64,000 bases of DNA from Sphaerotilus uruguayifluvii (GTDB lineage Bacteria > Pseudomonadota > Gammaproteobacteria > Burkholderiales > Burkholderiaceae_C): the NCBI RefSeq assembly GCF_013294065.1, contig NZ_JABSNM010000008.1, forward strand, positions 1 to 64,000. Direction: 5' to 3'. The notes under the pieces are model-generated. The model was not told where the DNA came from, ran no database searches, and worked only from the letters and a program-made list of their open reading frames with translations. Below, piece after piece: positions 9,674 through 32,661 of the stretch (position 1 is its first letter; each line of letters opens with the position of its first letter). The translations under genes were made by a program, and so were the position numbers.

Positions 9674-9690
9674 CGAGGGATGACGAGGAG

Positions 9691-9786: not shown

Positions 9787-9796
9787 GCCATCCCCG

Positions 9797-9828: not shown

Positions 9829-9846
9829 GGGTTTCTTATCGGCGTC

Positions 9847-10383
9847 TCAGAGCTGCCACTGCAGCATGACGCTCATCTGGCCGCGGTTCTGGCCGGGCAT
9901 ATTGCCGACCTCGACCTGCAGCGTCGTCTCGTTCGACAGCTGCCAGCTCACGCCGGCACCGGCGCCGACCTGCAGCGCCCGGCCCGGCTCGTCGCGCCGG
10001 GTCTTCATTTCGGTCTCGATGCGGCCATAGGCGCGGGTGCGCGCATCCAGCGGCAGCTCGGCGATCGCGCTGCCGCGGATCCGCGAGCCCGGCCGGCCGG
10101 AGGCCGCCTGGGGCGCGCCGAAGCTGGCGATCTGCGCGTTCCAGCCGCTGCGCGGCTGGACCGGCTCGCTGTAGCGCAGGCGGATCTGGCGCCCGATCTT
10201 CGTCTCGCCGGTCACGCCGGCGCCCTTGGCCTGGGCTGCGCCGCCGCTGCCGAGCAGCGTGCCGCCCATCAGCGCCAGCAGCGTCGCCACCGAGCCCGGA
10301 CGCCGGCGCACGATGCGCACGACGCGGCGCATGCGGCTGGCGGTGCGGTGCAGGGCGTGGCGGGCAGCAGGTCGGCTGGGCAT
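9847..10383 (-). CDS. small exported protein, possibly outer-membrane beta structure; function unknown
   Basis: 178 residues. A very basic N-terminus (MRRVVRIVRRRPG) leads into a hydrophobic stretch ATLLALMGGTLLGSGGAAQA that ends like a signal peptide. The mature part alternates polar and hydrophobic residues and ends in strand-like pieces (GAGAGVSWQL, TTLQVEVGN, MSVMLQWQL) resembling the closing strands of an outer-membrane barrel. I do not recognise a family. The start at 10383 is taken as the longest reasonable one; an ATG at 10332 would give a cleaner signal peptide, and neither has an obvious ribosome site. The 208-base gap upstream (10384-10591) shows no other gene and presumably holds its promoter. 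Confidence 0.55.
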   Translation of the reverse strand: MPSRPAARHALHRTASRMRRVVRIVRRRPGSVATLLALMGGTLLGSGGAAQAKGAGVTGETKIGRQIRLRYSEPVQPRSGWNAQIASFGAPQAASGRPGSRIRGSAIAELPLDARTRAYGRIETEMKTRRDEPGRALQVGAGAGVSWQLSNETTLQVEVGNMPGQNRGQMSVMLQWQL

Positions 10384-10591
10384 GGCCGTGATTGGCGCAT
10401 GCCTCGTTGGCCAGGACGTAACCAGATCTGGTGCCGACAGGTTTTTCAGCCGCCTCCGACAGGGAGCTTTTTCCCCCTCTTTCGGATGAATCTGTGAAAA
10501 ATTCCCATCAGAACCACGATTTCCGCCTCAGGGTGATTGTTTCATTTGGCGGCTGTTTCGAAGCGCCTGGTAACTGGATCGATGCAGATCG

Positions 10592-12676
10592 TCACATGAT
10601 CCCGCCTGCCGGCCGGGGTATTCCCTGATCCGCGACAAGCTGCTCGAGCCAGTCGACGATCTCGGGCGGACTGACGGCGTCGCGGCTCATGACCCGATCG
10701 GCCGGCTCGCCCTGCAGCATCCGGCGCACCGGCAGCTCCATCTTCTTGCCCGAGAGCGTGCGCGGGATGGCCGGCGCGGCCAGGATGCGGTCGGGCAGGT
10801 GGTGCGGCGAGACCTGGGTCGCGATGCGGGTGCGGATGTGCCCGGCCAGCGTCTCGTCGAGCACCGCGCCGCGGGCCGGAACGACCAGCATGACGATCTC
10901 GCCGTCCGGATGCCCGGCGTCGTGCAGGTCGACGACCAGGCTGTCGGCGATCTCGGGCAGCGCCTCGACCGCGCTGTAGATCTCGGCGCTGCCCAGGCGC
11001 ACGCCGCGGCGGTTCAGCGTCGCGTCGCTGCGGCCGAGGATCACCGCGCCGGTGCGACCCTCCTGCGGGTGCGGCACCAGCCGGATCCAGTCGCCGTGGC
11101 GCCAGACCGCGCCGACGCCGTCGTGGCCGGGATAGGTCTCGAAATAGCTCTCGATCAGCCGGCGGTCGCCCTCGTCCTTCCAGAAGTACAGCGGCATCGA
11201 CGGCAGCGGCCGGGTGCAGACCAGCTCGCCGACGGCGTCGGTCAGCGGCTCGCCGCGGCCGTCGGCCTGCGGCGGCCCCCAGGCCTCGACCGCGGCGCCG
11301 AGGCAGCGGCACTGGATCTCGCCGGGCGGGTTGGCCAGCGTCGGCAGGCCGGCGACGAAGGCGCCGGCGAAGTCGGTGCCGCCGGCGATCGAGCTGATCC
11401 ACATCGGCCGGCCCTCGTCCTGCGGCGGCAGCTGCTGCTGCAGCCAGGCATGGACCTCGGCGGGCAGCGGCGAGCCGGTCGAGCCGACCGCGCGCAGCGC
11501 CGACAGGTCGGCGGCCTGCGTCGGCTCGATGCCCGAGCGCGACATCGCGGTCAGCACCGCGGCGCCGGCGCCGAGGTGGGTCGTGCCGGTCTCGGCGGCG
11601 AAGCGCCACAGCAGCCCCCAGTCGGGCGCGTCGGCGCGGCCCGCCGGGTGGCCGTCGTGCAGCGCGATCGTCGTGCCGCCGAGCAGCGCGCCGACCTGCA
11701 GGTTCCACATCACCCAGCCGCTGGAGGTGGTCCAGTGGAAGACGTCGCCGGTGTCGACGCTGGGGCCGAGGTTGTTGTGCAGCACGTTGAGCTTGAGGTG
11801 CTCGAGGATCACGCCGCCGTGGCCGTGCACGATCGGCTTGGGCAGTCCGCTGGTGCCGCTGGAGTAGACGATCCACAGCGGGTGGTCGAAGGGCAGCCAC
11901 TCCGGCTCGAAGTTCCACGGGTTGCCGGCCAGCAGCGGGCGCAGGTCCCAGGCGCGCCGGCCGGGGGCGGCGAACTCGTCGGCCTCGGCGTCGCGGTCCA
12001 GGCAGGGCCACAGGATCATGTGCTCGACCGAGGGCAGGCCGTCCAGCAGCGTGTGCAGCAGCGGGCGTCGGTCATGGTCGCGCCCGCCCCAGGTGCTGCC
12101 GTCGCAGCCGATCAGCACCTTGGGCTCGATCTGGCGGAAGCGCTCGAGCACCGCGCCGGCGCCCATGTCGGGCGAGCAGACCGACCAGATCGCGCCGAGG
12201 CTGGCGCAGGCCAGGAAGGCCACCACCGTCTGCGGCGCGTTGGGCAGGTAGGCGGCGACACGGTCGTTGCGCTGCACGCCCATGCCGCGCATCGCCACCG
12301 CCAGCGAGGCGACCTCGCGGCGCAGCTCCGGCCAGCTCACCCGCAGCGTGCGCCCGGCGTCCTGCAGCATCTCGTTGCGGAACACGATGGCGGGAATGTC
12401 GGCGCCGTGCGCCTCGTCGGCGTGGCGGAAGACCTGGCGCGCGTAGTTCAGCTGCGTGCCGGGAAACCAGACCGCGCCCGGCACCCGCCCGTCGGCCAGC
12501 GCGACCACCGGCTCGACCGGCGACTCGATGTCGAACCAGTCCCACAGCGCGCCCCAGAAGGCGTCCTGGTCGTCGACCGACCATTGCCAGAGATCGTCGT
12601 AATGCTCGAAGCGAAGCCGGCGTTCCTGCGCCAGCCAGCGAAGAAAGAGGGTGATCCGGGGCTCGGGGAGCGCCAT
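10592..12676 (-). CDS. acetoacetyl-CoA synthetase (ANL-family acyl-CoA ligase)
   Basis: 694 residues. It activates acetoacetate to acetoacetyl-CoA with ATP, giving AMP and PPi, which links ketone bodies to PHB and fatty-acid metabolism. The N-terminal part (FWGALWDWFDIESP, VWFPGTQLNYARQVF) matches acetoacetyl-CoA synthetases rather than acetyl-CoA synthetases. The P-loop-like AMP-binding motif is IVYSSGTSGLPKPIVHGHGG, and the C-terminal domain carries RSDATLNRRGVRLGSAEIY and the conserved lysine region RTLSGKKMELPV. The start is set at ATG 12676 with AGGA eight bases upstream; a TTG at 12715 would add 13 residues. It stands alone, separated from the next gene by about 96 bases. Confidence 0.88.
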   Translation of the reverse strand: MALPEPRITLFLRWLAQERRLRFEHYDDLWQWSVDDQDAFWGALWDWFDIESPVEPVVALADGRVPGAVWFPGTQLNYARQVFRHADEAHGADIPAIVFRNEMLQDAGRTLRVSWPELRREVASLAVAMRGMGVQRNDRVAAYLPNAPQTVVAFLACASLGAIWSVCSPDMGAGAVLERFRQIEPKVLIGCDGSTWGGRDHDRRPLLHTLLDGLPSVEHMILWPCLDRDAEADEFAAPGRRAWDLRPLLAGNPWNFEPEWLPFDHPLWIVYSSGTSGLPKPIVHGHGGVILEHLKLNVLHNNLGPSVDTGDVFHWTTSSGWVMWNLQVGALLGGTTIALHDGHPAGRADAPDWGLLWRFAAETGTTHLGAGAAVLTAMSRSGIEPTQAADLSALRAVGSTGSPLPAEVHAWLQQQLPPQDEGRPMWISSIAGGTDFAGAFVAGLPTLANPPGEIQCRCLGAAVEAWGPPQADGRGEPLTDAVGELVCTRPLPSMPLYFWKDEGDRRLIESYFETYPGHDGVGAVWRHGDWIRLVPHPQEGRTGAVILGRSDATLNRRGVRLGSAEIYSAVEALPEIADSLVVDLHDAGHPDGEIVMLVVPARGAVLDETLAGHIRTRIATQVSPHHLPDRILAAPAIPRTLSGKKMELPVRRMLQGEPADRVMSRDAVSPPEIVDWLEQLVADQGIPRPAGGIM

Positions 12677-19627: not shown

Positions 19628-22618
19628 GTGAGCCCTGAGTCCGTTCTCGCCGATGAGGCCCGTGAACCCGCTGCGGGCCAGGAGCGGCTGTCCGAGCCGC
19701 CCGCCTGGCCGGTGCTGACGGTGGTGTTCTCCGACCTGGGCGGCGCCGGCGTGGCGGGTGGGCTCGAGAGCGAGCATTACGCGCGGCTGCTGCAGGCGCT
19801 GCGGCAGCTCGGCGACACGGTGCTGAGCGCCCACGGCGGGCAGGTGCTGCGGCTGCAGGGCGACGGCGTGCTGGCGGTCTTCGGCCTGCCGCAGCCGCAG
19901 CCGGACGACACCCGCCGCGCGATCGAGGCGGTGCTCGACCTGCACGAGCGGGTGCGTGCGCTGCGTCCGCCGGTGCGGCCGGCCGGGCTGCCGGCGCTGG
20001 TGCTGCATTCGGGCCTGCATGCCGGGCCGGTGCAGGTCGGTCCGGGCGACGCGCAGCGTGGCCGGCTGACGCTGTCCGGCGACGTGCCCGACCTGGCCGT
20101 GCGGCTGTCGATGGCAGCCGGGCGCGACGAGCTGCTGGTCAGCCTGGAGGCGCTCGGCCCGCAGGCGCAGGCCTTCCTGACCGAGCCGCGCGAGCCGCTG
20201 ATCCTGCCCGGGCGTGACCGGCCGGTCGCGCTGTGCCGGGTGCGCGCGCGGGTGGACCAAGCCGGCGCTCGGGTGCCCCGGCGCCAGCGCGCCCTGCTGC
20301 CCTTCGTCGGTCGCGAGGCCGAGCTGGCCTGGCTCGAGGAGGCGGCCGCCACGGTCGGCCAGACCGGGACGCCGGTCTGCCGGCTGCTGCTCGGGGTGCC
20401 GGGCCTGGGCAAGACACGCCTGCTCGGCGAGTTCGCCGAGCGTTCGGCCTCCCGGTTCCGGCGGGTGCTGACCGGGCACTGCGAGCGCCAGCTCAGCGCC
20501 GAGCCGCTGCAGCCCTTCCTGCAGATGCTGCCCGGCACGGAGCCGCCGCGACGCATCGACGCGCGGGACGCGGCCGGCGATCCGGTGACGCGGCTGTGCG
20601 AGCGGCTGCTGGAGGAGGTGCGCGCCGACGCGCCGGTGCTGCTGTGCATCGACGACTGGCAGTGGGCCGACGAGGCAGCGCTGCAGCTGCTGATGCGGCT
20701 GCGCCGGCAGGCTGCCGGACTGCCGCTGATGATCGTGCTGACCGCCCGCGATCTGTCGGGCGCCGAGCGCAGCCGGCTCGACATGCCGGGGCGTGTGCTG
20801 GTGCCCTTCAGCGACGAGGAGGCGGACCGCACCGTGCACCAGCTGCTGCCCTCGATCGAGCCTGTCGAGATCGACTCGATCCGGCGACTGTCCGGCGGCA
20901 ACGCGCTCTACATCGAGGAGCTCTGCCATGCGCTGCTGGTGCATGCCGAGCTGCGCCGCCAGGCCGGCCGGCCCTATGGTGGCGCCGCGTGGCTGGACCG
21001 GCTGATCGAGGCGCGGCTGGCGCGGCTGCCCGAGCCGGCGCGCGAGGTGCTGCAGATCGCCGCGGTGATCGGCGTGCATGTGCCGGTGGTGCTGCTGTCG
21101 GCCGTCACCGGCGAGCCGGTGGAGGGTGCGCTGGCCCGCCTGGCCGCCGAGGATGTCCTGTTCCCTGACGTGTCCGCCGGCCGGCTGCGCTTCAAGCATG
21201 GCATCACCCGCGACGTGATCTACCGGTCGATCGGGCTGGCGCAGCGCCAGCAGCTGCACCGCCGGGTCGCCGCGACGCTGGCAGGCACCGATGCACAGGC
21301 CCACGAGGCGCTGGCGCATCACTGGCATGCCGCCGGTGTGCCGGAGCAGGCCCTGGAGGCGGCCGAGCGGGCCGCCGACCGGGCGCAGGCGCTGTCATCG
21401 CTGGACCGCGCCCGCGAGTTCCATCGCCTCGCGCTGGCCGCGATCGAGGCGCTGCCGTCGACGCCGGCGCTGCGCCAGCGCTGGTTCGACCGCGTCCAGC
21501 GGCTGGCGCTGGCCGGGGTCTTCGATGCGGCACGGGCGGATCTGGAGGTGGTGCGGCGCGCGGTGTCGCTGGCGATGCAGGGCGACGATGTCGGGGTGCA
21601 GGCGCGCATGCGCTACTGGCTGGCCTACATGCACTATGCGCTCGGCGAGGCGCGCGAGGCGGTACGCGAGGGCCGCGAGGCGCTGGTGCTGGCGCGGCGG
21701 GCCGGTGATGCCCCGCTCGAGGTGCAGGTCCGTGCGACGCTGGGCCAGGCCCTGGCCTCGGCGGCGCGGTATCCGGCCGCGCTGGCGCTGCTCGACGATG
21801 CCGGCGGCATCAAGCGTCGCCATCGCTCCGGGCGGCGACCCTCGGTCGGCCTGGCCTACACGCTGACCTGCCAGGCGGCGATCCACGGCGACCAGGGCCG
21901 CTTCGAGCTGGCCGGGGAGCTGTTCGGCGAGGCGCTGGAGGCGGCTGGCGAGGGCATGCACGAGATCGGCGCGTCGATCCGGGGCTGGCAGGCGGTCGTG
22001 CTGCTGTGGCAGGGCCGCTGGCAGGAGGCGGCGACGGCGGCCGCCCAGGCGCACCGCATCGGCGAGCAGGTGCGCAGCCTGTTCTCGTTCTCGATGAGCC
22101 ATGCGGCGGGCAGCTTCGCGCGCTGGCGCCTCGATCCGGACGGACCGGGGCTGCAGGGCGTGCGCGACGCGACGGTCTGGCTGGCGCCTCGCGACGGCGG
22201 GCTGTTCGCCTCGCTCAACCACGGCTGGCTGGCCGAGGGCGAGGTCGAGCGAGGGCAGCCCGATCGCGCGCGCGAGCAGGCCGCGCTGGCGCTGGCCCGC
22301 GCGCGCCGCGGCGACTGGCTCGGGGCGGCGATGGCCTCGCGGGCGCTGGCGCGGCTGGCCGGCGGCAGTGCGCCGCCGCAGGCCTGGCACCATCTGGTGC
22401 GTGCCGAGCGGGCGGCACGCTGCCGCCATTCGGCGCACGAGCAGGCGCTCAACCGGCTGGCCCGGGTGCGCTGGCTGCTGCAGTGCGGCCGCGACCGCAC
22501 GCCGGAGGGCGAGTCGGCCGTGGCGCTGCTGGACGAGGCCGAGGCGGCCTTCACCGCGATGTCGATGTCCTGGCATGTCGCGCAGATGGCCCGGCTGCGC
22601 GGCATGACCGGCACCTGA
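19628..22618 (+). CDS. class III cyclase-like domain fused to AAA/STAND ATPase and TPR-like repeats
   Basis: 996 residues. Residues about 28-200 form a class III nucleotide cyclase homology domain: both metal-binding aspartates appear to be kept (VVFSDLGG; RLQGDGVLAVFG), but the transition-state Asn of VNLAAR is Asp in VPDLAVRL, so activity is doubtful. An ATPase module follows (about 230-560) with Walker A LGVPGLGKTRL and Walker B VLLCIDDWQWAD, then helical TPR-like repeats to the end. This build belongs to large signal-transducing cyclase-ATPase proteins. The GTG start at 19628 is the first in frame and lacks a clear ribosome site. The stop TGA abuts the stop of the converging gene (TGATCA). 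Confidence 0.85.
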   Translation: MSPESVLADEAREPAAGQERLSEPPAWPVLTVVFSDLGGAGVAGGLESEHYARLLQALRQLGDTVLSAHGGQVLRLQGDGVLAVFGLPQPQPDDTRRAIEAVLDLHERVRALRPPVRPAGLPALVLHSGLHAGPVQVGPGDAQRGRLTLSGDVPDLAVRLSMAAGRDELLVSLEALGPQAQAFLTEPREPLILPGRDRPVALCRVRARVDQAGARVPRRQRALLPFVGREAELAWLEEAAATVGQTGTPVCRLLLGVPGLGKTRLLGEFAERSASRFRRVLTGHCERQLSAEPLQPFLQMLPGTEPPRRIDARDAAGDPVTRLCERLLEEVRADAPVLLCIDDWQWADEAALQLLMRLRRQAAGLPLMIVLTARDLSGAERSRLDMPGRVLVPFSDEEADRTVHQLLPSIEPVEIDSIRRLSGGNALYIEELCHALLVHAELRRQAGRPYGGAAWLDRLIEARLARLPEPAREVLQIAAVIGVHVPVVLLSAVTGEPVEGALARLAAEDVLFPDVSAGRLRFKHGITRDVIYRSIGLAQRQQLHRRVAATLAGTDAQAHEALAHHWHAAGVPEQALEAAERAADRAQALSSLDRAREFHRLALAAIEALPSTPALRQRWFDRVQRLALAGVFDAARADLEVVRRAVSLAMQGDDVGVQARMRYWLAYMHYALGEAREAVREGREALVLARRAGDAPLEVQVRATLGQALASAARYPAALALLDDAGGIKRRHRSGRRPSVGLAYTLTCQAAIHGDQGRFELAGELFGEALEAAGEGMHEIGASIRGWQAVVLLWQGRWQEAATAAAQAHRIGEQVRSLFSFSMSHAAGSFARWRLDPDGPGLQGVRDATVWLAPRDGGLFASLNHGWLAEGEVERGQPDRAREQAALALARARRGDWLGAAMASRALARLAGGSAPPQAWHHLVRAERAARCRHSAHEQALNRLARVRWLLQCGRDRTPEGESAVALLDEAEAAFTAMSMSWHVAQMARLRGMTGT

Positions 22619-23503
22619 TCAGTGCCGTGTCATCAGCGGCAGCCAGCGCGACAGCACCGGCCAGGCGACCGCGACCGTCGCGCTGAAGTCGTCGAAGAAC
22701 AGTCCGAGCAGCAGCGACAGCGGTTCCTGGCGCGCCAGCGTGCGCAGGCCCTGGCGGCGCTGCATCTGCTGCAGCTCCTGGCACAGCGTGTCGAGCAGCG
22801 CCGGATCGTCGCCCGGTCGGGACGGCACCCGGTCGTCGGTGATGACGATCGTGCCGCCGGGCAGGCCGAAGGCTGCCGGCGCCCCGAGCCGGCCGCGGGC
22901 GCGGAACTGCGCGTCCCACGGCGTGGGCGCGCCGGTCGGGCAGCGGCTGGCAGTCAGCTGGCCGAGCTGCTGGCGCAGGTCCTGCTGGGTGGTGGCGGGC
23001 AGCTGGCTGGGCAGCACCCAGCGGGTGTCGAGCTGCGACAGCAGCTCGCGGCCGATGTGGCGGTCGACCTGCGCCGGCACCCGATCGACGAGATGCTCGG
23101 CGGTCGCCGGCAGCGCCAGCCAGGCCGCAGCCAGCGCCAGCGCCACGGTCGCGGCGGTGCGCCAGCGGCGCAGGCCGCCGCGCGCAGGGCCCGTGTCCGC
23201 GTTCGTCCGGTCGAGCCAGCGCTCGAGATCGCAGTCGGCGGGGCAGTCGAGCAGCGCGCCGTCGGGCAGCTGCAGCAGGCAGCGGCCGCTGGCGCTGCGG
23301 TGGCCGATCTGGGTCTGGCCGGGCAGGAAGCGTTCGACGAAGTTGCAGCCGCGCACCTGCAGGTGCCGTTCGTCCAGCGTCAGCAGCACCGGCTGAGGCG
23401 CTCGGACCCGGCTGCCGAAGTAGTCGGCCTCGATCTGCCGGTCTTCGCGGGCGGCGGTGGCCGGCGTGTCGAATGTCCCCGTGCCTGCACTGGTCGTGCC
23501 CAT
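22619..23503 (-). CDS. membrane M48-peptidase-like protein lacking the HExxH zinc motif
   Basis: 294 residues. An N-terminal domain (about 25-100, DYFGSRVRAPQPVLL to DCPADCDLERWL) resembles the small domain in front of betaproteobacterial M48 peptidases. One membrane helix follows (about 115-132, TAATVALALAAAWLALPA), then a peptidase-like domain with GLPGGTIVITDDRV. In M48 enzymes this is followed by AHEIGHVxxRH; here the aligned segment reads CQELQQMQRRQGLR, so both zinc histidines are gone. The domain then ends early at LPLMTRH. A non-catalytic pseudo-protease is inferred. AGGGAG precedes the start. It follows two DUF898 genes, which commonly neighbour M48 genes in this order. Confidence 0.7.
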   Translation of the reverse strand: MGTTSAGTGTFDTPATAAREDRQIEADYFGSRVRAPQPVLLTLDERHLQVRGCNFVERFLPGQTQIGHRSASGRCLLQLPDGALLDCPADCDLERWLDRTNADTGPARGGLRRWRTAATVALALAAAWLALPATAEHLVDRVPAQVDRHIGRELLSQLDTRWVLPSQLPATTQQDLRQQLGQLTASRCPTGAPTPWDAQFRARGRLGAPAAFGLPGGTIVITDDRVPSRPGDDPALLDTLCQELQQMQRRQGLRTLARQEPLSLLLGLFFDDFSATVAVAWPVLSRWLPLMTRH

Positions 23504-23676
23504 CAGCTGCTCCCTGTGATTCCCCTGGGACCGGCGGCACGCTCGAGAGGGTCTGGTGGGTGTCTGCCGGTCCGGCGGGGAGGGCGGATCCCCGCTTTGT
23601 CAGTGGAACTCTAGCGGCCGGCCGTGGCGCTGGCAGTCCCCATGAGGGTGGAGCAGTTGTTTCAATTCATGTGCAT

Positions 23677-24711
23677 TCATGCGCGCGCGATCCGCACCTG
23701 CACCGCCTCGAGCCGCAGCCGCGCGACCGCGACGGCCGCGAACGGCCAGTACAGCCCCAGCGTGACGGTGCACAGCAGCATGTTCTTCAGATAGAGCAGC
23801 ACCAGCCGGTGCACCGGCAGCGCGCTCGAGAACGACAGGTGCTGGCTGCGCATGCGGTTCCACAGCAGGTCCTGCGTGCGGGCGACCCAGTAGGCCCGCG
23901 CGGTCAGCAGCAGGCCGATGTCGACGAGCAGGCCGGTCAGCAGCGGCGCGATCGCCTCGGCCGCCGCGATCAGCGGCGCGCACAGCAGGTGCAGCAGCAT
24001 CAGCCCGAGCAGCAGGCCGAGCAGGCCGGCGTGCATGCGGTAGAAGTCCCGCGGCGCGATCGCCTCGAGGTGGGTGCTTTCCTCGCCGAGGCCGAGATGC
24101 GCATGCAGGTAGCGGCTGCGGCGCTCGTGCAGCCACGGGACCAGGCCGAGCAGCGCCAGCAGCGCCAGGCTGACGACGACCGCCAGCAGCCAGCCGCCGG
24201 GCGGATCGGGCTGCGCCAGCAGCGCCTGCCCGATCAGCAGCACCGCCAGCGGCACCACCGCCGGCCGGAAGACCTCGCGCGCATCGGCCGGCGTGCCCTC
24301 GAAGCGCAGCGGCTGGCCACGCCAGCGCGTGTGGTTGATGCGCCAGCGCAGCGCGTCGCGCATCCGCCAGGGCCAGGCCGGCGCCAGCGCCAGCAGCAGG
24401 ATCGCCGCCACCAGCGGCGCCGAGTGCGCGATCAGCGTGTAGACCGCCAGCGCGCCGAGCATCAGCAGGTGCGGCCGCATCTGCTCGCGGCCGTCGCCGT
24501 CGAAGGCCAGCGGCTCGCCGCCGACCAGCGTGTGCTCGCGCCAGTAGCGCAGCCGGCGCGCCCGGGCCATCGGCAGCAGCACGCCCAGCGTCAGCGCCAC
24601 CATCGCCAGGTTGCCCAGCCACAGCCGCGCGTAGTCGCGTCCGGTGCCTGTGAAGCGGATCGGCAGCACCGCCGCGGTGCTGCCGTGTCCGGCCTGCGGA
24701 TCCTTGGTCAT
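23677..24711 (-). CDS. DUF898 (YjgN-like) multi-spanning membrane protein, second paralogue
   Basis: 344 residues, an inner-membrane protein with about six to eight hydrophobic segments. Family hallmarks are FTGTGRDYARLWLGNL at the start, the short loop ARARRLRYWREHT, WRINHTRWRGQPLRF, and the C-terminal TLGLYWPFAAVAVARLRLE. It is a paralogue of the next gene upstream (24834-26024); both end their membrane part with the same LYWPFAAVAVARLRLE run. The biochemical role of the family is not established. A GGGGAAA ribosome site lies upstream of ATG 24711. The gap to the M48-like gene is 173 bases. Confidence 0.8.
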   Translation of the reverse strand: MTKDPQAGHGSTAAVLPIRFTGTGRDYARLWLGNLAMVALTLGVLLPMARARRLRYWREHTLVGGEPLAFDGDGREQMRPHLLMLGALAVYTLIAHSAPLVAAILLLALAPAWPWRMRDALRWRINHTRWRGQPLRFEGTPADAREVFRPAVVPLAVLLIGQALLAQPDPPGGWLLAVVVSLALLALLGLVPWLHERRSRYLHAHLGLGEESTHLEAIAPRDFYRMHAGLLGLLLGLMLLHLLCAPLIAAAEAIAPLLTGLLVDIGLLLTARAYWVARTQDLLWNRMRSQHLSFSSALPVHRLVLLYLKNMLLCTVTLGLYWPFAAVAVARLRLEAVQVRIARA

Positions 24712-24732
24712 TCCTGAATTTCCCCCACCTCT

Positions 24733-24763
24733 GCGGCCCGCTTTATAAACAAAAGCGGGCCGC
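24733..24763. terminator. strong hairpin between the two DUF898 genes
   Basis: GCGGCCCGCTTT (24733-24744) and AAAGCGGGCCGC (24752-24763) form a perfect 12-bp stem around ATAAACA. It lies 71 bases past the stop of the upstream DUF898 gene and about 20 bases before the start of the downstream one, so it may separate or attenuate the pair. Confidence 0.6.
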
Positions 24764-24833
24764 ATTCCTGCGGGGCGAGGCTGCCAGGGGCTGGAAATGT
24801 TCCCGTGGCGGTCGGAGCGGGGGGACAGTGTGA

Positions 24834-26024
24834 TCAGAGCGCCACGTCGAGCCCGAGCAGTTCGCCCGCCGCGTCGCCGATCGTGCCGGCGGGCTGCTCG
24901 GGTCCGGCCGGGGCGCCGGCCAGCTGCTCGAGCGGCAGGCTGCTGCGGATCGTGACGGACTCGAGCCGCAGTCGTGCCACCGCGACGGCCGCGAACGGCC
25001 AGTACAGACCGAGCGTCAGCACGGTCAGCAGCGTGTTCTTCATCAGCAGCATCCACAGTGCGGTGGCCGACAGCTGGCTGTCGAAGCGCAGGTGCTGGCT
25101 GCGGGTGTGGCTCCACGCCAGGTTCTGCATCCGGCTGGTGGAGTAGGCCATCATCGCGGTGACGATCGCCATGTAGCCCAGCGGTCCGGCGACGAGGGCC
25201 AGCGGCGGCAGGACCATGGTCGCCGCGATGCCGGCCGCGCCGAGCGCCAGCCCGAGCACCATCAGCACCAGCATCGACTTGAAGCCCATCGTGTAGAGGT
25301 CGCGCAGCCGCACGCCCTCGAGCCGCGTGCGCTCGCCGGCGAAGGTGAAGTGGCCGTGCCGGTAGCGCAGCATGCGCAGCAGGGTCCAGGGGCCTGCCAG
25401 ATAGACCGCCAGCGTGCACAGCAGGACGGCCCCGATCAGCCAGGCCGACGGCCCCTGCGGAGCGGCCGCGTCCTCGGCGAGCTCGGGCGACGAGGCCAGC
25501 AGCGGCGTCAGGCCCAGCAGCACCGCCATCGGCACGATCATCGGCAGGAAGACCCGGTAGGCTTCGGCGACCGTGCCGCTGAAGCCCAGAGGGCGGCCTC
25601 GCCAGCGCACATGGCCGAGCCGGAAGCGCAGCGCCGAGCACATCAGCCAGGGCCAGGCGGCGGTGCCCGCCAGCGCGACCGCCAGCGCCAGCATCGGCGC
25701 GAACTCGCTGCCGATCAGGTAGCCGGCGACCACTGCGCCGACGATCAGGTGGCCGCGCAGCATCTTCCACGGGTCGCCGTCGAAGCTCAGCGGCGTGCCG
25801 TCGACCAGCGTGTGCTCGTGGAAATGGCGCAGCTGCCGGGCGCGCGCGAAAGGCAGGTACAGGCCCAGCGTCAGCACCGTGCGCAGCAGGTTGACGATCC
25901 AGATGCGGAAGTACGCGCGTCCGGTGGCGGTGAAGCGCAGGCTCGGCGCCTGTGCCGCCGCGGGGGCTTCGGGTGGCGCCGCGCTGGCGTCGGGTGTGGC
26001 GAGACCGGTGTCCGGATGCATCAT
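24834..26024 (-). CDS. DUF898 (YjgN-like) multi-spanning membrane protein, first paralogue
   Basis: 396 residues. After a Pro/Ala-rich N-terminus come the DUF898 opening FTATGRAYFRIWIVNLLR, the basic loop ARARQLRHFHEHTL, FRLGHVRWRGRPLGF, and the C-terminal LGLYWPFAAVAVARLRLESV, with several membrane helices between. A cytoplasmic tail of about 45 residues, rich in Pro and Gly, follows. The start is ATG 26024, or the adjacent ATG at 26021, after a GA-rich ribosome site. It is divergent from the SPFH operon across 163 bases that include the palindrome CCCCGGCCGGGG (26070-26081). Confidence 0.8.
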   Translation of the reverse strand: MMHPDTGLATPDASAAPPEAPAAAQAPSLRFTATGRAYFRIWIVNLLRTVLTLGLYLPFARARQLRHFHEHTLVDGTPLSFDGDPWKMLRGHLIVGAVVAGYLIGSEFAPMLALAVALAGTAAWPWLMCSALRFRLGHVRWRGRPLGFSGTVAEAYRVFLPMIVPMAVLLGLTPLLASSPELAEDAAAPQGPSAWLIGAVLLCTLAVYLAGPWTLLRMLRYRHGHFTFAGERTRLEGVRLRDLYTMGFKSMLVLMVLGLALGAAGIAATMVLPPLALVAGPLGYMAIVTAMMAYSTSRMQNLAWSHTRSQHLRFDSQLSATALWMLLMKNTLLTVLTLGLYWPFAAVAVARLRLESVTIRSSLPLEQLAGAPAGPEQPAGTIGDAAGELLGLDVAL

Positions 26025-26187: not shown

Positions 26188-27225
26188 ATGTCGCTGTTCG
26201 ATTTCATCCGCAAGCAGTTCATCGACGTTCTCGAGTGGACCGAGACCGGCGACGGTACGCTGGCCTGGCGCTTCCCGATGGCCGACAACGAGATCCAGAA
26301 CGGCGCCTCGCTCACGGTGCGCGAGTCGCAGGTGGCGGTGTTCGTCAACGAAGGCCAGGTGGCCGACGTGTTCGGCCCGGGGCGCCACACGCTCACCACC
26401 CAGACGCTGCCGCTGCTGACCAACCTGAAGAACTGGGACAAGCTCTTCGCCTCGCCCTTCAAGAGCGATCTCTATTTCTTCAGCACCCGCCAGCAGGTCG
26501 ACCAGCGCTGGGGCACGCAGCAGCCGGTGACGATCCGCGACAAGGACTTCGGCGCGGTGCGGCTGCGCGCCTTCGGCAACTTCGCCTGGCGGCTGGTCGA
26601 TCCGCGCGCCTTCATGAAGGAGGTCAGCGGCACGCGCGAGCGCTGCACCGCCGCCGAGATCGACGGCCAGCTGCGCGGCTTCCTGCTGCAGCACCTGTCG
26701 GACGCGGTGGCGCAGTCGGGCATCCCCTTCCTGGACCTGGCGGCCAACCAGGTCGAGTTCGCCGCGCGGCTCAAGGCGGCCACGGCGCCCGAGTTCGCCC
26801 GTCTGGGCCTGAGCCTGGAGACGGTCACGCTGCAGAACGTCTCGCTGCCGGAGGAACTGCAGAAGGTCCTCGACCAGAAGATCGGCATGGGCATGATCGG
26901 CCAGAACATGGGCCAGTTCATGCAGTACCAGACCGCGCAGGCGATTCCGAAGCTGGCCGAAGGGGCCGGCCAGGGCGGGGGCGTGGCGGGCGAGGCGATG
27001 GGCCTCGGCGCCGGGCTGGCGCTGGGCCAGACGCTGGCGCAGACGATGCAGCAGGGCCTGCAGCCGGCAGCCGCGGCGGCACCGGCGGCCGCGCCGGTCG
27101 TGGCGCTCCAGCCCGACGAGATCATGGCCACGCTGGAGAAGCTCGCCGACCTGAAGGCCCGGGGCATCCTCACCGACGAGGAGTTCACCGCCAAGAAGAC
27201 CGAGCTGCTGAAGAAGCTGGTCTGA
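26188..27225 (+). CDS. SPFH (band-7-like) domain protein with C-terminal SHOCT motif
   Basis: 345 residues. Residues 1 to about 225 match the SPFH family that includes YdjI-type 'virion core protein' homologues: MSLFDFIRKQFIDVLEWTE, GPGRHTLTTQTLP, VTIRDKDFGAVRLRAFGNF. A Gly/Ala/Gln-rich linker follows. The last 35 residues form a SHOCT motif (MATLEKLADLKARGILTDEE), a short oligomerisation element. Such proteins scaffold membrane microdomains. The start at ATG 26188 has GGGAGA upstream and the usual N-terminus. It is the first gene of a unit; the next gene begins two bases after its stop. Confidence 0.88.
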   Translation: MSLFDFIRKQFIDVLEWTETGDGTLAWRFPMADNEIQNGASLTVRESQVAVFVNEGQVADVFGPGRHTLTTQTLPLLTNLKNWDKLFASPFKSDLYFFSTRQQVDQRWGTQQPVTIRDKDFGAVRLRAFGNFAWRLVDPRAFMKEVSGTRERCTAAEIDGQLRGFLLQHLSDAVAQSGIPFLDLAANQVEFAARLKAATAPEFARLGLSLETVTLQNVSLPEELQKVLDQKIGMGMIGQNMGQFMQYQTAQAIPKLAEGAGQGGGVAGEAMGLGAGLALGQTLAQTMQQGLQPAAAAAPAAAPVVALQPDEIMATLEKLADLKARGILTDEEFTAKKTELLKKLV

Positions 27226-27226
27226 G

Positions 27227-28894
27227 GTGGCCGAGACCTACCGCGCCTACCGCGCGGCCTGCCCGAACTGCGGCGCGCCGGTCGAGTTCCGCTCGGCGGC
27301 CTCGGCCAGCGCGGTGTGCAGCTTCTGTCGCTCGACGCTGGTGCGCGAGGGCGAGGCGCTGCGCCGCATCGGCGAGAGCGCCGAGCTGTTCGACGACCAC
27401 TCGCCGCTGCAGCTCGGCGTCACCGGGCGCTGGCAGGGCGTGGCCTTCACGCTGGTCGGGCGCCTCCAGTACGCCTATGCCGACGGGCGCTGGACCGAGT
27501 GGCATGCGCTGTTCGACGCGGGGGGCGCGGGCGACCCGGGCGACTCCGGCGGTGCCGCGTCCGCCGGGCGCAGCGCCTGGCTGTCGGAGGACAACGGCGC
27601 CTACGTGCTGGCGCTGGATCGGCCCCTGGCCGACCGCGTGCCGCAGGCCGGCACGCTGTTCCCCGGCCAGAAGGCGCTGATCGACGGACGCGCCTGGGAG
27701 GTCGCCTCGGTGGTGCAGGCGCAGGTGCACGCCGCCCAGGGCGAGCTGCCGCGCCCGCCGCAGCCCGCCGGGCCGGATCACGCCTTCGTCATCGCCGACC
27801 TGCGCAATGCCCAGGACGAGGTCGGCACGCTCGACTACGCCGAGCCGGCGCGGCCGCAGTGGTCGGTCGGCCGCGCGGTGCGGCTGGCCGAGCTGCAGCT
27901 CGCCGGCCTGCGCGAGCTGGGCAGCGAGAAGACGCTGGCCGGGCGCAGCATCGAGTGCCCGAGCTGCGGCGCCTCGCTGGAGATCCGGCTGGACAGCACC
28001 CGGTCGGTCACCTGCGGCCAGTGCCGCGCGGTGGTCGACGTGTCGCAGGGCGTCGGCGCCGATCTGGCGCACTTCGCGCAGAACGCGGTCACCGAGCCGC
28101 AGATCCCGCTGGGCACGGTCGGCACGCTGGCGCTGGGCACGCCGCAGCCGCTGCCCTGGCAGGTGGTCGGCTACCTGGAGCGCTGCGACCTGCCTGAGCC
28201 GGGCAGCGACGACGAGCAGACCTTCTGGCGCGAGTACCTGCTCTACCACCCGACCGAGGGCTTCGTCTTCCTGGTCGACACCGAGGAGGGCTGGAGCTGG
28301 GTGCGGCCGCTGACCGGCGTGCCGGTGGTGCAGGGCGACCGCGCCACCTGGGCCGGCGCCCGCCATGCGCAGCGCTGGCACTACCGCGCGAAGACGGTCC
28401 ATGTGATCGGCGAGTTCTACTGGCGCATCCGCCGCGACGAGCCGGTCGAGGTCACCGACTACGAAGGCGAGGGCCCGAACCGCCGAAGGCGCCTGAGCCG
28501 CGAGCAGACCGCCGGCCCCGGCGGCGGCGAGATCACCTGGTCGGCCGGCGAGACGCTGGAGGCGCGGGCGGTGGCCCAGGCCTTCGGGCTGGACAGCCGG
28601 GCCGGCGCGGCGCTGGCGCGCGATGCCGCGCCGGTGGCGGCCGGCCGGGGCGGCGGCATCGGTGCCGCCGGTGTCATCATCCTGGTGCTGCTGGTGCTGT
28701 TCGTCGTGCTGCTGATGGCGCGCTGCAGCGACGACGGCTGCGCCGATGTCCGCAGCACCTTCGGCGAGACCAGCGCCGAGTACCGGCAGTGCCTGGCGCG
28801 CCAGCGCACCTCCTCGTCCTCCTCGGGCGGCTCCTATGGCGGCTCGTCCTGGGGTGGCGGCAGCAGCGGGGGCGGCGGAGGCGGCCACAAGTAA
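27227..28894 (+). CDS. DUF4178 protein with two zinc ribbons and a membrane anchor
   Basis: 555 residues. Zinc ribbon 1 is at about 12-35 (CPNCGAPVEF, then CSFCRS), followed by a first DUF4178 domain (about 55-220, LGVTGRWQGVAFTLVGRLQ). Ribbon 2 is at about 243-270 (CPSCGASLEI, CGQCRA), followed by a second DUF4178-like domain (about 285-440, EYLLYHPTEGFVFLVDTEEG). A transmembrane helix lies at about 478-498 (VIILVLLVLFVVLLMARC), and the tail is low-complexity Ser/Gly. The function of DUF4178 is unknown; it recurs beside DUF350, SPFH and polyamine genes. The GTG start overlaps the upstream gene's ribosome region, so translational coupling is likely. Confidence 0.82.
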   Translation: MAETYRAYRAACPNCGAPVEFRSAASASAVCSFCRSTLVREGEALRRIGESAELFDDHSPLQLGVTGRWQGVAFTLVGRLQYAYADGRWTEWHALFDAGGAGDPGDSGGAASAGRSAWLSEDNGAYVLALDRPLADRVPQAGTLFPGQKALIDGRAWEVASVVQAQVHAAQGELPRPPQPAGPDHAFVIADLRNAQDEVGTLDYAEPARPQWSVGRAVRLAELQLAGLRELGSEKTLAGRSIECPSCGASLEIRLDSTRSVTCGQCRAVVDVSQGVGADLAHFAQNAVTEPQIPLGTVGTLALGTPQPLPWQVVGYLERCDLPEPGSDDEQTFWREYLLYHPTEGFVFLVDTEEGWSWVRPLTGVPVVQGDRATWAGARHAQRWHYRAKTVHVIGEFYWRIRRDEPVEVTDYEGEGPNRRRRLSREQTAGPGGGEITWSAGETLEARAVAQAFGLDSRAGAALARDAAPVAAGRGGGIGAAGVIILVLLVLFVVLLMARCSDDGCADVRSTFGETSAEYRQCLARQRTSSSSSGGSYGGSSWGGGSSGGGGGGHK

Positions 28895-28927
28895 CCCGCA
28901 AGTCACGCGCAACCCGGAGAAGATTCC

Positions 28928-29143
28928 ATGGAGATGCTCAAGCCCGCGGTGATCCTCGGCTCGATCCTGTACGCCGTCATCGGCGTGGTCGTGCTGTGGG
29001 TCAGCTTCGTCGTCATCGACAAGCTCACGCCCTACAAGCTCTGGGAGGAGCTGGTCGAGCACAGGAACGTGGCGCTGGCCATCGTGGTCGGCGCGATGTT
29101 CATCGCGATCGGGCAGATCGTGGCCGCGGCGATCCACGGGTGA
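28928..29143 (+). CDS. DUF350 (YjfL-like) small membrane protein
   Basis: 71 residues with two membrane helices (about 8-31, VILGSILYAVIGVVVLWVSF, and about 46-68, VALAIVVGAMFIAIGQIVAA). A short polar loop with an acidic run (LWEELVEHRN) joins them. This is one DUF350 unit, the fold seen in E. coli YjfL, where the family travels with glutathionylspermidine-synthetase-like and other polyamine-related genes. A GGAG ribosome site precedes ATG 28928. Its stop overlaps the GTG of the next gene (GTGA), which supports joint translation and probably a complex in the membrane. Confidence 0.88.
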   Translation: MEMLKPAVILGSILYAVIGVVVLWVSFVVIDKLTPYKLWEELVEHRNVALAIVVGAMFIAIGQIVAAAIHG

Positions 29144-30717
29144 GCGGCGCGGTCGAGGCGCCGCCGGGCCGCGCGCGCATCTCGCCGGCCGAGATCACGC
29201 TGCTGGGCTCGGTCTTCCTGATCGCCGCCTGCGGGCTGGTCTACGAGCTGGCGGCGGGCGCCCTGGCGAGCTACCTGGTCGGCGACTCGATCCGGCAGTT
29301 CTCGACCGTCATCGGCACCTACCTGTTCGCGATGGGGCTGGGCTCGTGGCTGAGCCGCTTCGTCGAGCGCCAGCTGGTGGCGCAGTTCATCGGCGTGGAG
29401 CTGCTGGTGGGCGCGGTGGGCGGGCTGATGCCCGCCGGCCTGTTCGTCGCGCACAACCTGCTGCCCGCCTCGGCCGCCGGCGCCTTCCAGGCGATCCTGC
29501 ATGCGCTGGTGCTGGCGGTGGGCGCGCTGGTCGGGCTGGAGATCCCGCTGGTGATGCGGCTGCTGCAGCGGCGCTTCCGCGAGCGCTACGGGCTGAAGGA
29601 CCTGGTGTCGCAGGTGCTGACCTTCGACTACCTGGGCGCGCTGGTGGTGGCGCTGGCCTTCCCGCTGCTGCTGGTGCCGCAGCTCGGGCTGATCCGCACC
29701 GGGCTGGTGTTCGGGCTGATGAACGCGGGCGTGGCGGTGTGGGCGCTGTGGCTGTTCCGCGCCGAGCTGCGCCGGCTGCAGGCGCTGGCGCTGGCCGCGG
29801 GCGCCACGATGGCGGTGCTGCTGGCAGCGCTGGCCGGCGCCGAGCGGCTGACCACCTGGGCCGAGGACCGCTACTACGGCGACCACATCCTGCATGTGGC
29901 CTCCAGCGACTACCAGCGCATCGTCGTGACCGGCGGGCGCGCGGGCCTGCGGCTCTTCCTCAACGGCAACCTGCAGTTCCACGAGCGCGACGAGTACCGC
30001 TACCACGAGGCGCTGGTGCATCCGGCGATGGCCGCGCACGGCGCGCCGCGCCGGGTGCTGGTGCTGGGTGGAGGCGACGGGCTGGCGGTGCGCGAGATCC
30101 TGAAATACCCCTCGGTCGAGCAGGTCACGCTGGTCGACCTGGACGCGCAGGTCACGCGGCTGTTCTCGACCGAGCCGCGGCTGGTGGCGCTGAACCGCGG
30201 CGCGCTGCGCTCGCCCAAGGTCACGGTGGTCAACGCCGACGCCTTCGCCTGGCTGGAGGCGCAGCGCGACCCGGCCGCCACCTGGGACGTGATCGTCATC
30301 GACTTTCCCGACCCCGGCAACTTCGCGGTCGGCAAGCTCTACTCGACGAGCTTCTACCCGATCGTCGACCAGCACCTGGCCGCGGGCGGCTTCATGGTGG
30401 TGCAGACCACCTCGCCGCTGGTGGCGCGGCGCAGCTTCTGGACGGTGGCGGCGACGCTGGAATCCGTGGGGCTGACGATCACGCCCTACCACGCGCTGGT
30501 GCCCAGCTTCGGCGAGTGGGGCTTCATCCTGGCCGGCCACCGGCCGTGGCATCTGGCGCGCGCGCTGCCCGAGGGCTTGCGCTTCCTGACGCCCGAGGTG
30601 ATGGCGACGCTGCTGCGCTTCCCGCCCGACATGGCCCGCACCGAGGAGGCGCCCAACCGCCTGTCCGACCAGCGCCTGGTGCGGCTGTTCGAGGAGGAGT
30701 GGGGGGCGCCGCGTTGA
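29140..30717 (+). CDS. membrane-integrated spermidine synthase-like aminopropyltransferase
   Basis: 525 residues. The first 230 hold about seven membrane helices (ITLLGSVFLIAACGLVYELA; LGLIRTGLVFGLMNAGVAV). The C-terminal half is a spermidine synthase-like domain: the YYGDHILHVASSDYQRI strand region, the cofactor loop VLVLGGGDGLAVREILKY at about 306, and DVIVIDFPDP, which keeps the catalytic-loop Asp. The expected chemistry is aminopropyl transfer from decarboxylated AdoMet, but the acceptor is unknown and need not be putrescine. The GTG start overlaps the DUF350 stop. A speD gene lies at the end of the same cluster and could supply the decarboxylated AdoMet. Confidence 0.88.
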   Translation: MSGAVEAPPGRARISPAEITLLGSVFLIAACGLVYELAAGALASYLVGDSIRQFSTVIGTYLFAMGLGSWLSRFVERQLVAQFIGVELLVGAVGGLMPAGLFVAHNLLPASAAGAFQAILHALVLAVGALVGLEIPLVMRLLQRRFRERYGLKDLVSQVLTFDYLGALVVALAFPLLLVPQLGLIRTGLVFGLMNAGVAVWALWLFRAELRRLQALALAAGATMAVLLAALAGAERLTTWAEDRYYGDHILHVASSDYQRIVVTGGRAGLRLFLNGNLQFHERDEYRYHEALVHPAMAAHGAPRRVLVLGGGDGLAVREILKYPSVEQVTLVDLDAQVTRLFSTEPRLVALNRGALRSPKVTVVNADAFAWLEAQRDPAATWDVIVIDFPDPGNFAVGKLYSTSFYPIVDQHLAAGGFMVVQTTSPLVARRSFWTVAATLESVGLTITPYHALVPSFGEWGFILAGHRPWHLARALPEGLRFLTPEVMATLLRFPPDMARTEEAPNRLSDQRLVRLFEEEWGAPR

Positions 30718-32321
30718 GGCGCCGCGAGCTGCTGGCCGGGCTGGCTGCCGGGCCCGCGCTGGGCCTGGCCGGCTGCGACACGGCACGGCCTGCGCTGGAC
30801 GGCGGCTGGATCGGCGCCGACTCGGCTGCGCGCGGTCACCGGCTGCGTGAGATCGGCGGCGCCCGGTCCGGCACGCTGCCGGCGCCCGCCCTCACGCGGC
30901 GGGTGGCGGTGCTGGTGGTGGGCGCGGGCATCGCCGGGCTGGCGGCGGCGCGTGCGCTGGAGCGCGCCGGCATCGACGACGTTCACCTGATCGAGCTGGA
31001 GGACGAGGCCGGCGGCCATTCGCGCGGCCATCGGCTGGCGGGCTTCGACTGCCCGCTCGGCGCGCATTACCTGCCGGTGCCGGGCGAGGCGGCTGCCGAG
31101 GTGCGCGAGCTGCTGCAGGACTTCGGCCTGGCGCGGGTCGAGTTCGGCCGCTGGCAGTGGGACGAGCGCCACCTGTGCCACGCGCCGCAGGAGCGGCTCT
31201 TCATCGACGGCGCATGGCACGAGGGCCTGCTGCCGCCGGCCGAGCCGGGCAGCCGCCTGCAGACGCAGTACCGCTCCTTCGCCCGCCTCGTGGCCGAGGC
31301 GCAGCGGCAGGTCGGCTTCTCGATGCCGGCGCTGCGCACGCCGTGGACGCCCGCGCAGGCCGCGCTGGAGGCGCAGACCTTCGCCGCCTGGCTGGACGTG
31401 CACGGGCTGGACGAGCCGCGGCTGCGCTGGTACCTCGACTACTGCTGCCGCGACGACTACGGCGCCGACGCCGCGACCGTCTCGGCCTGGGCCGGGCTGC
31501 ACTACTTCGCCAGCCGCCACGGCTTCCACGCGCCGGGCGATGCGCAGGCCGAGCGCGAGCCGGTGTTCACCTGGCCCGAGGGCAACGCCTGGCTGGCACG
31601 GCGGCTGGCCGCGCCCTTCGCGGCCGGGCGGCTGCATGCCTGCCGGGTCGCGCTGCGGCTGGACGAGGCGCGCGAGGGCGTGCAGGTGCTGGCCTGGGAC
31701 GCACGGGCCGACCGCCTCGAGGCCTGGCAGGCCGATCGGGTGGTGCTGGCGCTGCCGCTGCATGTGGCCGCGCGGTTCTGGCCCGAGGCGCCCGAGGCGC
31801 TGCGCCAGACGGCGGCGCAGGCCCGCCATGCGCCGTGGCTGGTGGCCCATCTGCATCTCGACGGGCCGCTGCTGCAGCGCGTCGGTGCGCCGCCCTCGTG
31901 GGACAGCGTCGCCTTCGGCACCGCCTCGCTCGGCTATGTCGACGCGATGCACCAGTCGACACGGCCGCACGCCGGTCCGACGGTGCTGACCGCCTACCTG
32001 CCGCTGTCCCCGGCCGAGCGGCCGGCGCTGCTGGGCGCGGACTGGCGCCCGTGGGCGCAGCGGGTGCTGGCCGACCTGCTGCCGCTGCATCCTGACCTGC
32101 CCGCCCGGCTGCGCCGCATCGAGCTGGCGCGCCACGGCCACGCGATGCGCATTCCGCTGCCGGGCACGCGCTCGGCGCCAGCGCATCAGGCCCTGGTGCA
32201 GTTGCCAGGCCGGGTCACGCTGGCGCATGCCGATCTGGCGGGCTACTCGGTCTTCGAGGAGGCCTTCACGCTGGGCTCGCTGGCGGGGCGCAGGGCGGCG
32301 GACCGAGCGCGCCGCGGATGA
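30714..32321 (+). CDS. FAD-dependent amine oxidase-like flavoprotein, Tat/lipoprotein-type N-terminus
   Basis: 535 residues starting with TTG at 30714, which overlaps the previous stop (TTGA). The N-terminus MRRRELLAGLAAGPALGLAGC combines a twin-arginine-like motif with a lipobox (LAGC), so export and lipid anchoring are possible. The FAD-binding dinucleotide fold follows at about 63 (VAVLVVGAGIAGLAAARALE, then ELEDEAGGHS), as in amine oxidases and phytoene desaturase-like enzymes. The C-terminal cap ends with HADLAGYSVFEEAF, the second FAD contact. Next to polyamine enzymes, oxidation of an amine product is a reasonable inference; the substrate is unproven. The last 56 bases overlap speD on the opposite strand. 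Confidence 0.82.
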   Translation: MRRRELLAGLAAGPALGLAGCDTARPALDGGWIGADSAARGHRLREIGGARSGTLPAPALTRRVAVLVVGAGIAGLAAARALERAGIDDVHLIELEDEAGGHSRGHRLAGFDCPLGAHYLPVPGEAAAEVRELLQDFGLARVEFGRWQWDERHLCHAPQERLFIDGAWHEGLLPPAEPGSRLQTQYRSFARLVAEAQRQVGFSMPALRTPWTPAQAALEAQTFAAWLDVHGLDEPRLRWYLDYCCRDDYGADAATVSAWAGLHYFASRHGFHAPGDAQAEREPVFTWPEGNAWLARRLAAPFAAGRLHACRVALRLDEAREGVQVLAWDARADRLEAWQADRVVLALPLHVAARFWPEAPEALRQTAAQARHAPWLVAHLHLDGPLLQRVGAPPSWDSVAFGTASLGYVDAMHQSTRPHAGPTVLTAYLPLSPAERPALLGADWRPWAQRVLADLLPLHPDLPARLRRIELARHGHAMRIPLPGTRSAPAHQALVQLPGRVTLAHADLAGYSVFEEAFTLGSLAGRRAADRARRG

Positions 32322-32661
32322 TCTCGCGCTCCTCGACTCGGGCCGGATCCAGCAGCGCGCGCAGCGCCGCCAGCAGCTGGCGCGCCTGCCGGGAGTGATC
32401 GCCCGAACGGTTGCAGACATAGACGTCGAGCGTCACCGCCGCCAGCTCCGGCCAGGTGTGCAGCGCCAGGTGCGACTCGGCCAGCAGCACCACGCCGGTC
32501 ACGCCGCCGGGCTCGGGAAAGGCGTGGAAGACCTCGCCGACGACGCTCAGGCCCGCCTCGCGCGCTGCGCGCACGCCGGCCTCGCGCAGCGTGTCGCGGT
32601 CGCGCAGCAGCGCCGTCGCGGCGCAGTCATGCCACTCGGCGCAGAGGTGAAGTCCGTCCAT
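32266..32661 (-). CDS. speD: S-adenosylmethionine decarboxylase proenzyme, bacterial class 1b type
   Basis: 131 residues. It makes decarboxylated AdoMet, the aminopropyl donor for spermidine-type products. The proenzyme cuts itself at Glu62-Ser63 in VLLAESHLALHTWPE to form the pyruvoyl group. His68 and Cys83 (VYVCNRSGD) fall exactly where the Thermotoga maritima enzyme has its processing and catalytic residues, so the protein should be active. The last 18 codons (GALGPPPCAPPASPA and stop) overlap the 3' end of the amine oxidase gene on the other strand. It is convergent with the operon that holds its likely partner aminopropyltransferase. Confidence 0.9.
   Translation of the reverse strand: MDGLHLCAEWHDCAATALLRDRDTLREAGVRAAREAGLSVVGEVFHAFPEPGGVTGVVLLAESHLALHTWPELAAVTLDVYVCNRSGDHSRQARQLLAALRALLDPARVEEREIIRGALGPPPCAPPASPA

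Follow-up and report, generated by a model that had tools for sequence, protein, structure and literature searches.

A conserved, putative membrane-linked aminopropyltransferase cluster of Sphaerotilus uruguayifluvii and its relatives: SpeD without canonical SpeE, a seven-helix fused synthase, and a probably exported oxidase

Polyamine-linked operons that combine DUF350, DUF4178, and a spermidine-synthase-like domain behind a seven-transmembrane transporter-like domain were described by Ravi et al. 2024 (PMC11237479), whose passages on these operons include a variant with a band-7 plus SHOCT protein, an S-adenosylmethionine (AdoMet) decarboxylase, and a polyamine oxidase, and who cite Li et al. 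2019 Biochem J. Here, we analyze a cluster of this kind at positions 26188 to 32661 of a 64,000-nucleotide stretch of the Sphaerotilus uruguayifluvii genome (contig NZ_JABSNM010000008.1, positions 1 to 64,000 of the forward strand; hereafter, the window), in which six genes encode an SPFH protein, a DUF4178 protein, a DUF350 protein, a membrane-fused synthase, a flavin adenine dinucleotide (FAD) oxidoreductase, and SpeD. An earlier note on this DNA had put the cluster forward as a candidate for an undescribed system, and, to judge from the passages on those published operons, it is not one. Our preferred reading, to which we give slightly less than an even chance, is that the fused synthase aminopropylates a membrane or periplasmic acceptor and that the product is then oxidized on the same face of the membrane. 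SpeD is commonly taken as a sign of spermidine synthesis. Li and coworkers, writing in 2019, reportedly found thousands of such fusions, a functional AdoMet decarboxylase, and SpeD without SpeE beside a fused protein of the major facilitator superfamily (MFS)/SpdSyn-like type and DUF350; they are said to have observed neither spermidine nor complementation of an Escherichia coli speE deletion, and to have proposed a non-putrescine acceptor.

SpeD and SpeE were surveyed in 60 genomes of the order, counting Spermine_synth matches above 90 bits. SpeD occurs in 18 of them, the same 18 have a Spermine_synth match of that strength, and the other 42 have neither. The match lies beside speD in a frame of 320 to 485 amino acids (aa), that is, of the canonical speE type, in half of the SpeD-bearing genomes (9/18), and in the other half it lies in a frame of at least 504 aa, the fused membrane synthase (fusion was judged by frame length in the eight fused-gene genomes other than the source). 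No genome (0/60) carries both types, such that half of the SpeD-bearing genomes in the sampled order have SpeD only in the company of a membrane-fused synthase. SpeD and the fused gene are less than 8 kb apart on one contig in seven of these nine genomes and on separate contigs in two. The source genome has a single SpeD, and profile searches of it returned neither a canonical SpeE nor an NspC match above the cut-off, so that neither of the two tested spermidine routes is present. A separate canonical SpeE, which the earlier note had named among the findings that would speak against its proposal, is thus not found: the genome holds only a weak, 32-bit Spermine_synth paralogue of a widespread kind, seen in most relatives whether or not they have SpeD and not counted here as SpeE. 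SpeD itself carries S63, which we take to be the self-processing serine, and H68 and C83, presumably the catalytic histidine and cysteine; the motif ESH..HTWPE is present in all 33 cluster-linked SpeDs.

Gene families were assigned by Pfam profile search of the window proteins, and the six genes named in the earlier note were recovered with agreeing families and coordinates. On the forward strand are genes for a 345-aa SPFH/Band_7_1 protein with a C-terminal SHOCT domain (26188 to 27225; Band_7_1 E value of 9.7e-78, plus SHOCT), a 555-aa DUF4178 protein (27227 to 28894; 2.2e-23, in two stretches), a 71-aa DUF350 protein with two transmembrane (TM) helices by hydropathy (28928 to 29143; 1.3e-14), a 525-aa membrane-bound spermidine-synthase-like protein (29140 to 30717; Spermine_synth, 5.9e-34, behind a multi-helix N-terminal half), and a 535-aa FAD oxidoreductase of the flavin amine-oxidase superfamily with a TTG start (30714 to 32321; Amino_oxidase, 9.6e-22). 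Convergent to these, on the reverse strand, is speD (32266 to 32661), coding for a 131-aa class 1b-type AdoMet decarboxylase (AdoMet_dc, 3e-27; TIGR03330, 88.5 bits against a cut-off of 75.65), which overlaps the oxidase gene tail to tail by 56 bases. The GTGA and TTGA overlaps claimed earlier are real, with the TTG start of the oxidase overlapping the synthase stop, but the gap between the SPFH and DUF4178 genes is 1 base, not 2, and 33 bases separate DUF4178 from DUF350, so that the description of five abutting or overlapping genes does not hold throughout.

To describe conservation among close relatives, we use the synthase's best 80 of at least 572 loci in genome contigs, with flanks of up to 8 kb; these loci are closely related to one another, and counts over them are not independent. 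Among the best listed matches, the synthase is 98% identical to that of a Pseudomonadota bacterium metagenome bin and 84 to 85% identical to those of two Sphaerotilus genomes. Of the 80 loci, 67 contain SPFH, 74 DUF4178, 76 DUF350, 72 the oxidase, and 33 SpeD. Wherever all five forward-strand genes are present (58 loci), they occur on one strand in the order SPFH-DUF4178-DUF350-synthase-oxidase; in the other 22 loci, the retrieved DNA, which in some cases reaches a contig end, misses at least one of the five. All four gaps are below 350 bases in 38 of the five-gene loci, and SpeD is present in 29 of the 58. SpeD is convergent in every locus that has it (33/33), and it overlaps the oxidase gene in 9 of the 33 loci where both were found. 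The coupled unit suggested by the earlier note is borne out by this constancy of order and strand, and the survey of co-occurrence that it had called for finds the association of the six families conserved. The cluster is therefore conserved as a unit and is not a chance grouping, although, because the 80 loci are close relatives, it is a stable unit that they establish and not independent origins. In the more spread-out loci, most of the intervening genes are found just before the synthase, after DUF350, or just after it, before the oxidase. Seven loci (L054, L056, L057, L065, L067, L069, and L078) have a block of 4.8 to 5.7 kb in the latter position that includes a frame of roughly 1250 aa and, in five of the seven, a response-regulator-like frame as well.

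The grouping recurs in further families of the same phylum. DUF4178 was detected in 16 of 199 genomes sampled across the phylum, and, of the 15 besides the source, 4 belong to its family, 2 to its class, and 9 are more distant. Of their fetched regions, 14 contain the synthase, 14 DUF350, 7 SpeD, 5 SPFH, and 4 the oxidase, the last being less widely kept than the synthase and DUF350. Genome-wide, all 15 have a fused-length synthase (one divergent and matched as two pieces), and 14 have SpeD. Spermine_synth matches below 70 bits were left out of this comparison and of the survey of 60 genomes; the one exception is G095, whose divergent fused gene gives two matches, of 63 and 45 bits, in a single frame. 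Among plasmid records, 13 match the synthase at an E value of ≤1e-20, and all 7 that match DUF4178 are among these 13. An alphaproteobacterial plasmid of Novosphingobium encodes, in one direction, SPFH, two DUF4178 proteins, a small gene, DUF350, the synthase, an FAD oxidoreductase, and speD; an Alteromonas plasmid (L143, positions 6001 to 12659) has the synthase, speD, a toxic-anion-resistance protein (presumably of the TelA type), DUF4178, and DUF350, with no annotated SPFH gene in this operon; and a plasmid of Gemmatirosa, from another phylum (Gemmatimonadota), has matches to all six families.

The catalytic half of the synthase (about residues 248 to 503; 29881 to 30648, forward strand) has an aminopropyltransferase fold, and the protein scores 666 against the NCBIfam equivalog model for polyamine aminopropyltransferase (NF002956; cut-off, 472). 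The catalytic domain keeps the SpeE residues for catalysis and for the donor, decarboxylated AdoMet (dcSAM), which we take to play the same roles here. Six residues separate fused synthases from their relatives' canonical SpeE; at position 457, for example, Phe is present in 24 of 24 fused synthases versus Tyr in 12 of 12 canonical enzymes. Several residues of the acceptor region are instead like those of a triamine/agmatine enzyme of known structure.

The N-terminal half is a seven-helix membrane domain (residues 16 to 232; 29185 to 29835, forward strand), with seven long helices in an AlphaFold model (mean predicted local distance difference test [pLDDT] score of 85.6) that are also hydrophobic by hydropathy. 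Loop charges were counted in 98 synthases (78 close sequences, 14 others, 3 of which are from the window's family, and 6 from plasmids). In the 78 close sequences, loops 2, 4, and 6 average 1.99, 4.63, and 3.03 Lys plus Arg residues versus 0.00 and 0.01 in loops 1 and 3 and 1.01 in loop 5, and the bias toward an inside N terminus is positive in all three groups (78/78, 14/14, and 6/6). Seven helices with an N-in charge pattern place the C-terminal domain outside, which suggests, as a prediction from loop charges, a periplasmic location for the catalytic domain. Within the membrane, E36, E134, and D163 are present in 98/98 and E87 in 95/98, and these buried acids might fit a carrier of a cation. 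The synthase also matches a model for fused MFS/spermidine synthases (NF037959; 42.2 bits, cut-off of 40). The catalytic domain is free of Cys in 76 of 78 close, 14 of 14 other, and 5 of 6 plasmid synthases; canonical SpeE has 1 to 5 Cys in 12 of 12. (This count, made by alignment, covered 78 of the 80 synthases, two cut frames being left out; an earlier motif-based count passed over 27 of the 80.) For this and the following proteins, alignments were built from sequences picked for spread, together with that of the window: 53 for the synthase, 53 for DUF4178, 35 for the oxidase, and 19 for DUF350.

The oxidase is probably a lipoprotein exported by the twin-arginine translocation (Tat) pathway, as predicted from its N-terminal signal (MRRRELL...LAGC; 30714 to 30776, forward strand), and it would then act on the periplasmic face. 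All 36 aligned oxidases have Cys21, the putative lipid-bearing residue of this signal, and R3 and R4 are each conserved in at least 90%. Two written Tat/lipobox patterns matched 52 and 59, respectively, of 70 oxidases (two short frames of the 72 were left out beforehand), and, of the 11 missed by the second, 4 have the Arg pair but do not fit the pattern, and 7 have no pair before the Cys at the chosen start. The same type of signal is seen in three plasmid oxidases. PF01593 is matched by 33 of 36 oxidases at an E value of ≤0.01, and the top PDB profile match is putrescine oxidase (3.8e-12). A conserved active-site lysine near flavin N5 is, we assume, what marks a polyamine or monoamine oxidase proper, and no conserved lysine column is present in the 36 aligned sequences (the most Lys-rich column has Lys in 10), so the protein is assigned to the superfamily only.

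Among the remaining proteins, the SPFH protein has no TM segment above a Kyte-Doolittle mean of 1.6, and the DUF350 protein is about half the length of its Pfam model. The DUF4178 protein (model mean pLDDT of 83.3) combines two Cys quartets of the zinc-ribbon-like type with two beta-rich domains, a single TM helix, and a Gly/Ser tail. Its Cys residues 12, 15, 31, 34, 244, 247, 263, and 266 are invariant in 54 aligned sequences. The TM helix spans residues 478 to 496 by hydropathy (28658 to 28714, forward strand; 480 to 499 in the model), and the disordered tail with its terminal His-Lys (28811 to 28891, forward strand) is predicted to be extracytoplasmic if the Cys quartets are cytoplasmic. 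All 74 untruncated close homologues end in His-Lys, the tail being otherwise variable; such a tail occurs in 5 of the 15 other regions, 4 of which are from the same family, and is absent from others that keep the enzymes. By this distribution, the terminal His-Lys is a feature of the lineage.

Under our preferred reading, SpeD would make dcSAM in the cytoplasm, the seven-helix inner-membrane synthase would bind it as spermidine synthase does, and the aminopropyl group would go to the amine of a non-putrescine acceptor, most likely one associated with the membrane, such as an aminophospholipid head group. Were the catalytic domain periplasmic, delivery of dcSAM would fall to the seven-helix domain, whose buried acids are invariant. 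The exported FAD lipoprotein would then oxidize or trim the product on that face, and SPFH, DUF4178, and DUF350 would form a membrane scaffold or sensor. The enzyme logic of the earlier note, from SpeD through dcSAM to a membrane aminopropyltransferase, is supported. Computation establishes the families and their co-occurrence, the retention of donor and catalytic residues, the residues that differ from relatives' SpeE, the lack of a canonical SpeE in this genome, the export signal of the oxidase, and the odd number of helices with its charge bias, whereas the acceptor, the path of dcSAM, the sequence of reactions, and the scaffold role are inferred. We are more doubtful of the further step in which the seven-helix domain exports dcSAM and the periplasmic domain, together with the FAD lipoprotein, adds a cationic group to the outer leaflet of the inner membrane or another envelope component; no aminopropyl transfer beyond the interior of the cell is known to us.

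Several observations weigh against the preferred reading. A periplasmic catalytic domain needs export of dcSAM, for which we found no precedent; the AlphaFold model carries no sidedness; and the lack of Cys supports the predicted sidedness only weakly, since SPFH proteins of the same loci, taken as cytoplasmic, are equally Cys-poor (none in 66 of 67, and 0 to 2 in eight others). The TAT_signal model of Pfam recognized 1 of 36 oxidases, and the oxidase is absent from 11 of the 15 other regions and is therefore not essential to the core. One DUF4178-bearing genome (G095) has the fused gene and no SpeD, and three of the 15 (G066, G140, and G225) hold a canonical SpeE besides the fused synthase. 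No acceptor was identified, and the group-separating residues single out no membrane acceptor, as a soluble triamine/agmatine enzyme of Thermus thermophilus also has Gln279, Ala368, Gln422, and Phe457, and a plant thermospermine synthase has the first three of these; the acceptor could thus be a larger free amine.

These points lend weight to other explanations. The synthase may instead be a cytoplasm-facing membrane aminopropyltransferase that acts on the inner leaflet, its membrane domain flipping or exporting the product to an outside oxidase. Since dcSAM arises in the cytoplasm and an outside oxidase would need such export, which fits the transporter-like domain matched by NF037959, this is a serious contender, yet we regard it as unlikely because the helix number and N-in loop charges of all 98 synthases put the C-terminal domain outside. 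Less likely again is ordinary polyamine synthesis, with a membrane-tethered enzyme that makes spermidine or uses agmatine or a triamine and an oxidase that serves periplasmic polyamine catabolism. The NF002956 score and retained catalytic residues speak for it, as does the T. thermophilus enzyme, which shares four of the six group-separating residues and is the best fold match; Phe457, which that enzyme also has, would be compatible with a free-amine acceptor, and the spermidine dehydrogenase SpdH of Pseudomonas aeruginosa is reported to have a Tat signal (PMC11107197). The differences from the 12 relatives' canonical SpeE, Phe457 among them, argue the other way, as do the SPFH, DUF4178, and DUF350 membrane proteins that constantly accompany the synthase, the three genomes that retain a canonical SpeE too, and the missing spermidine and failed complementation that Li and coworkers reportedly observed. 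The His-Lys end conserved in close DUF4178 homologues, on a tail that would lie on one face with the oxidase and perhaps the catalytic domain, would suit a terminal lysine that is itself the acceptor, receiving a hypusine-like N6-aminopropyl modification that the oxidase then alters. We consider this very improbable: tailless DUF4178 proteins occur in L111, L112, L116, L122, and L138 to L141, where the synthase is kept, in some cases with the oxidase and SpeD, and the only His-Lys-ending, Gly/Ser-rich frames in regions L111 to L125 are those of the five DUF4178 proteins.

NCBI's model names the membrane-fused protein a polyamine aminopropyltransferase; should the acceptor prove to be part of the envelope, bacterial membranes would carry a widespread modification that has gone unnoticed. 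The predicted sidedness can be tested cheaply and points to where the product should be sought.

The cluster is flanked on one side by a divergent DUF898 gene pair and on the other by ribosomal-protein genes starting with rplC. Matches to this adjacent DUF898 pair and to a DUF7092 protein (22619 to 26024, reverse strand) were confined, among the 80 loci, to the two from Sphaerotilus. Elsewhere in the window are a 996-aa protein (19628 to 22618, forward strand) that matches AAA_16 and, more weakly, nucleotide-cyclase and TPR models, and a DUF805 RNA motif (RF03081; 59606 to 59672, reverse strand) that barely exceeds its gathering score (51.2 versus 51.1 bits).

Among known systems, SpdH of P. 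aeruginosa, for which its authors propose periplasmic polyamine oxidation (PMC11107197), resembles the present oxidase, by description, in its Tat signal; the oxidase here is a predicted lipoprotein encoded with a synthase. The band-7 variant of Ravi et al. (PMC11237479) is closest, all of its components as described there (SHOCT-bearing band-7 protein, DUF4178, DUF350, fused synthase, AdoMet decarboxylase, and FAD oxidase) being present in this locus. It differs in that the CesT/Tir-PspA pair of the published operons is absent between the genes here. The band-7 protein described there has two TM segments; in the SPFH protein here, no segment exceeds the hydropathy threshold used. The word "periplasm" does not occur in the main text of that paper, and its passages on the operons give no sidedness for the synthase; nor do they contain the exported oxidase, the predicted sidedness and buried acids, the residue comparison, or the His-Lys tail. 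Canonical SpeE has the same Spermine_synth domain, with the same dcSAM and catalytic residues, but it is soluble and without a membrane domain, and relatives' SpeE has Tyr at the position of Phe457. The soluble aminopropyltransferases of T. thermophilus (3anx/1uir) and humans (2o06) likewise lack the seven-helix N-terminal domain and keep other genetic company. MprF, too, combines in one protein a domain for membrane transport with a transferase that alters the charge of lipids, although its transferase is unrelated and uses a different donor.

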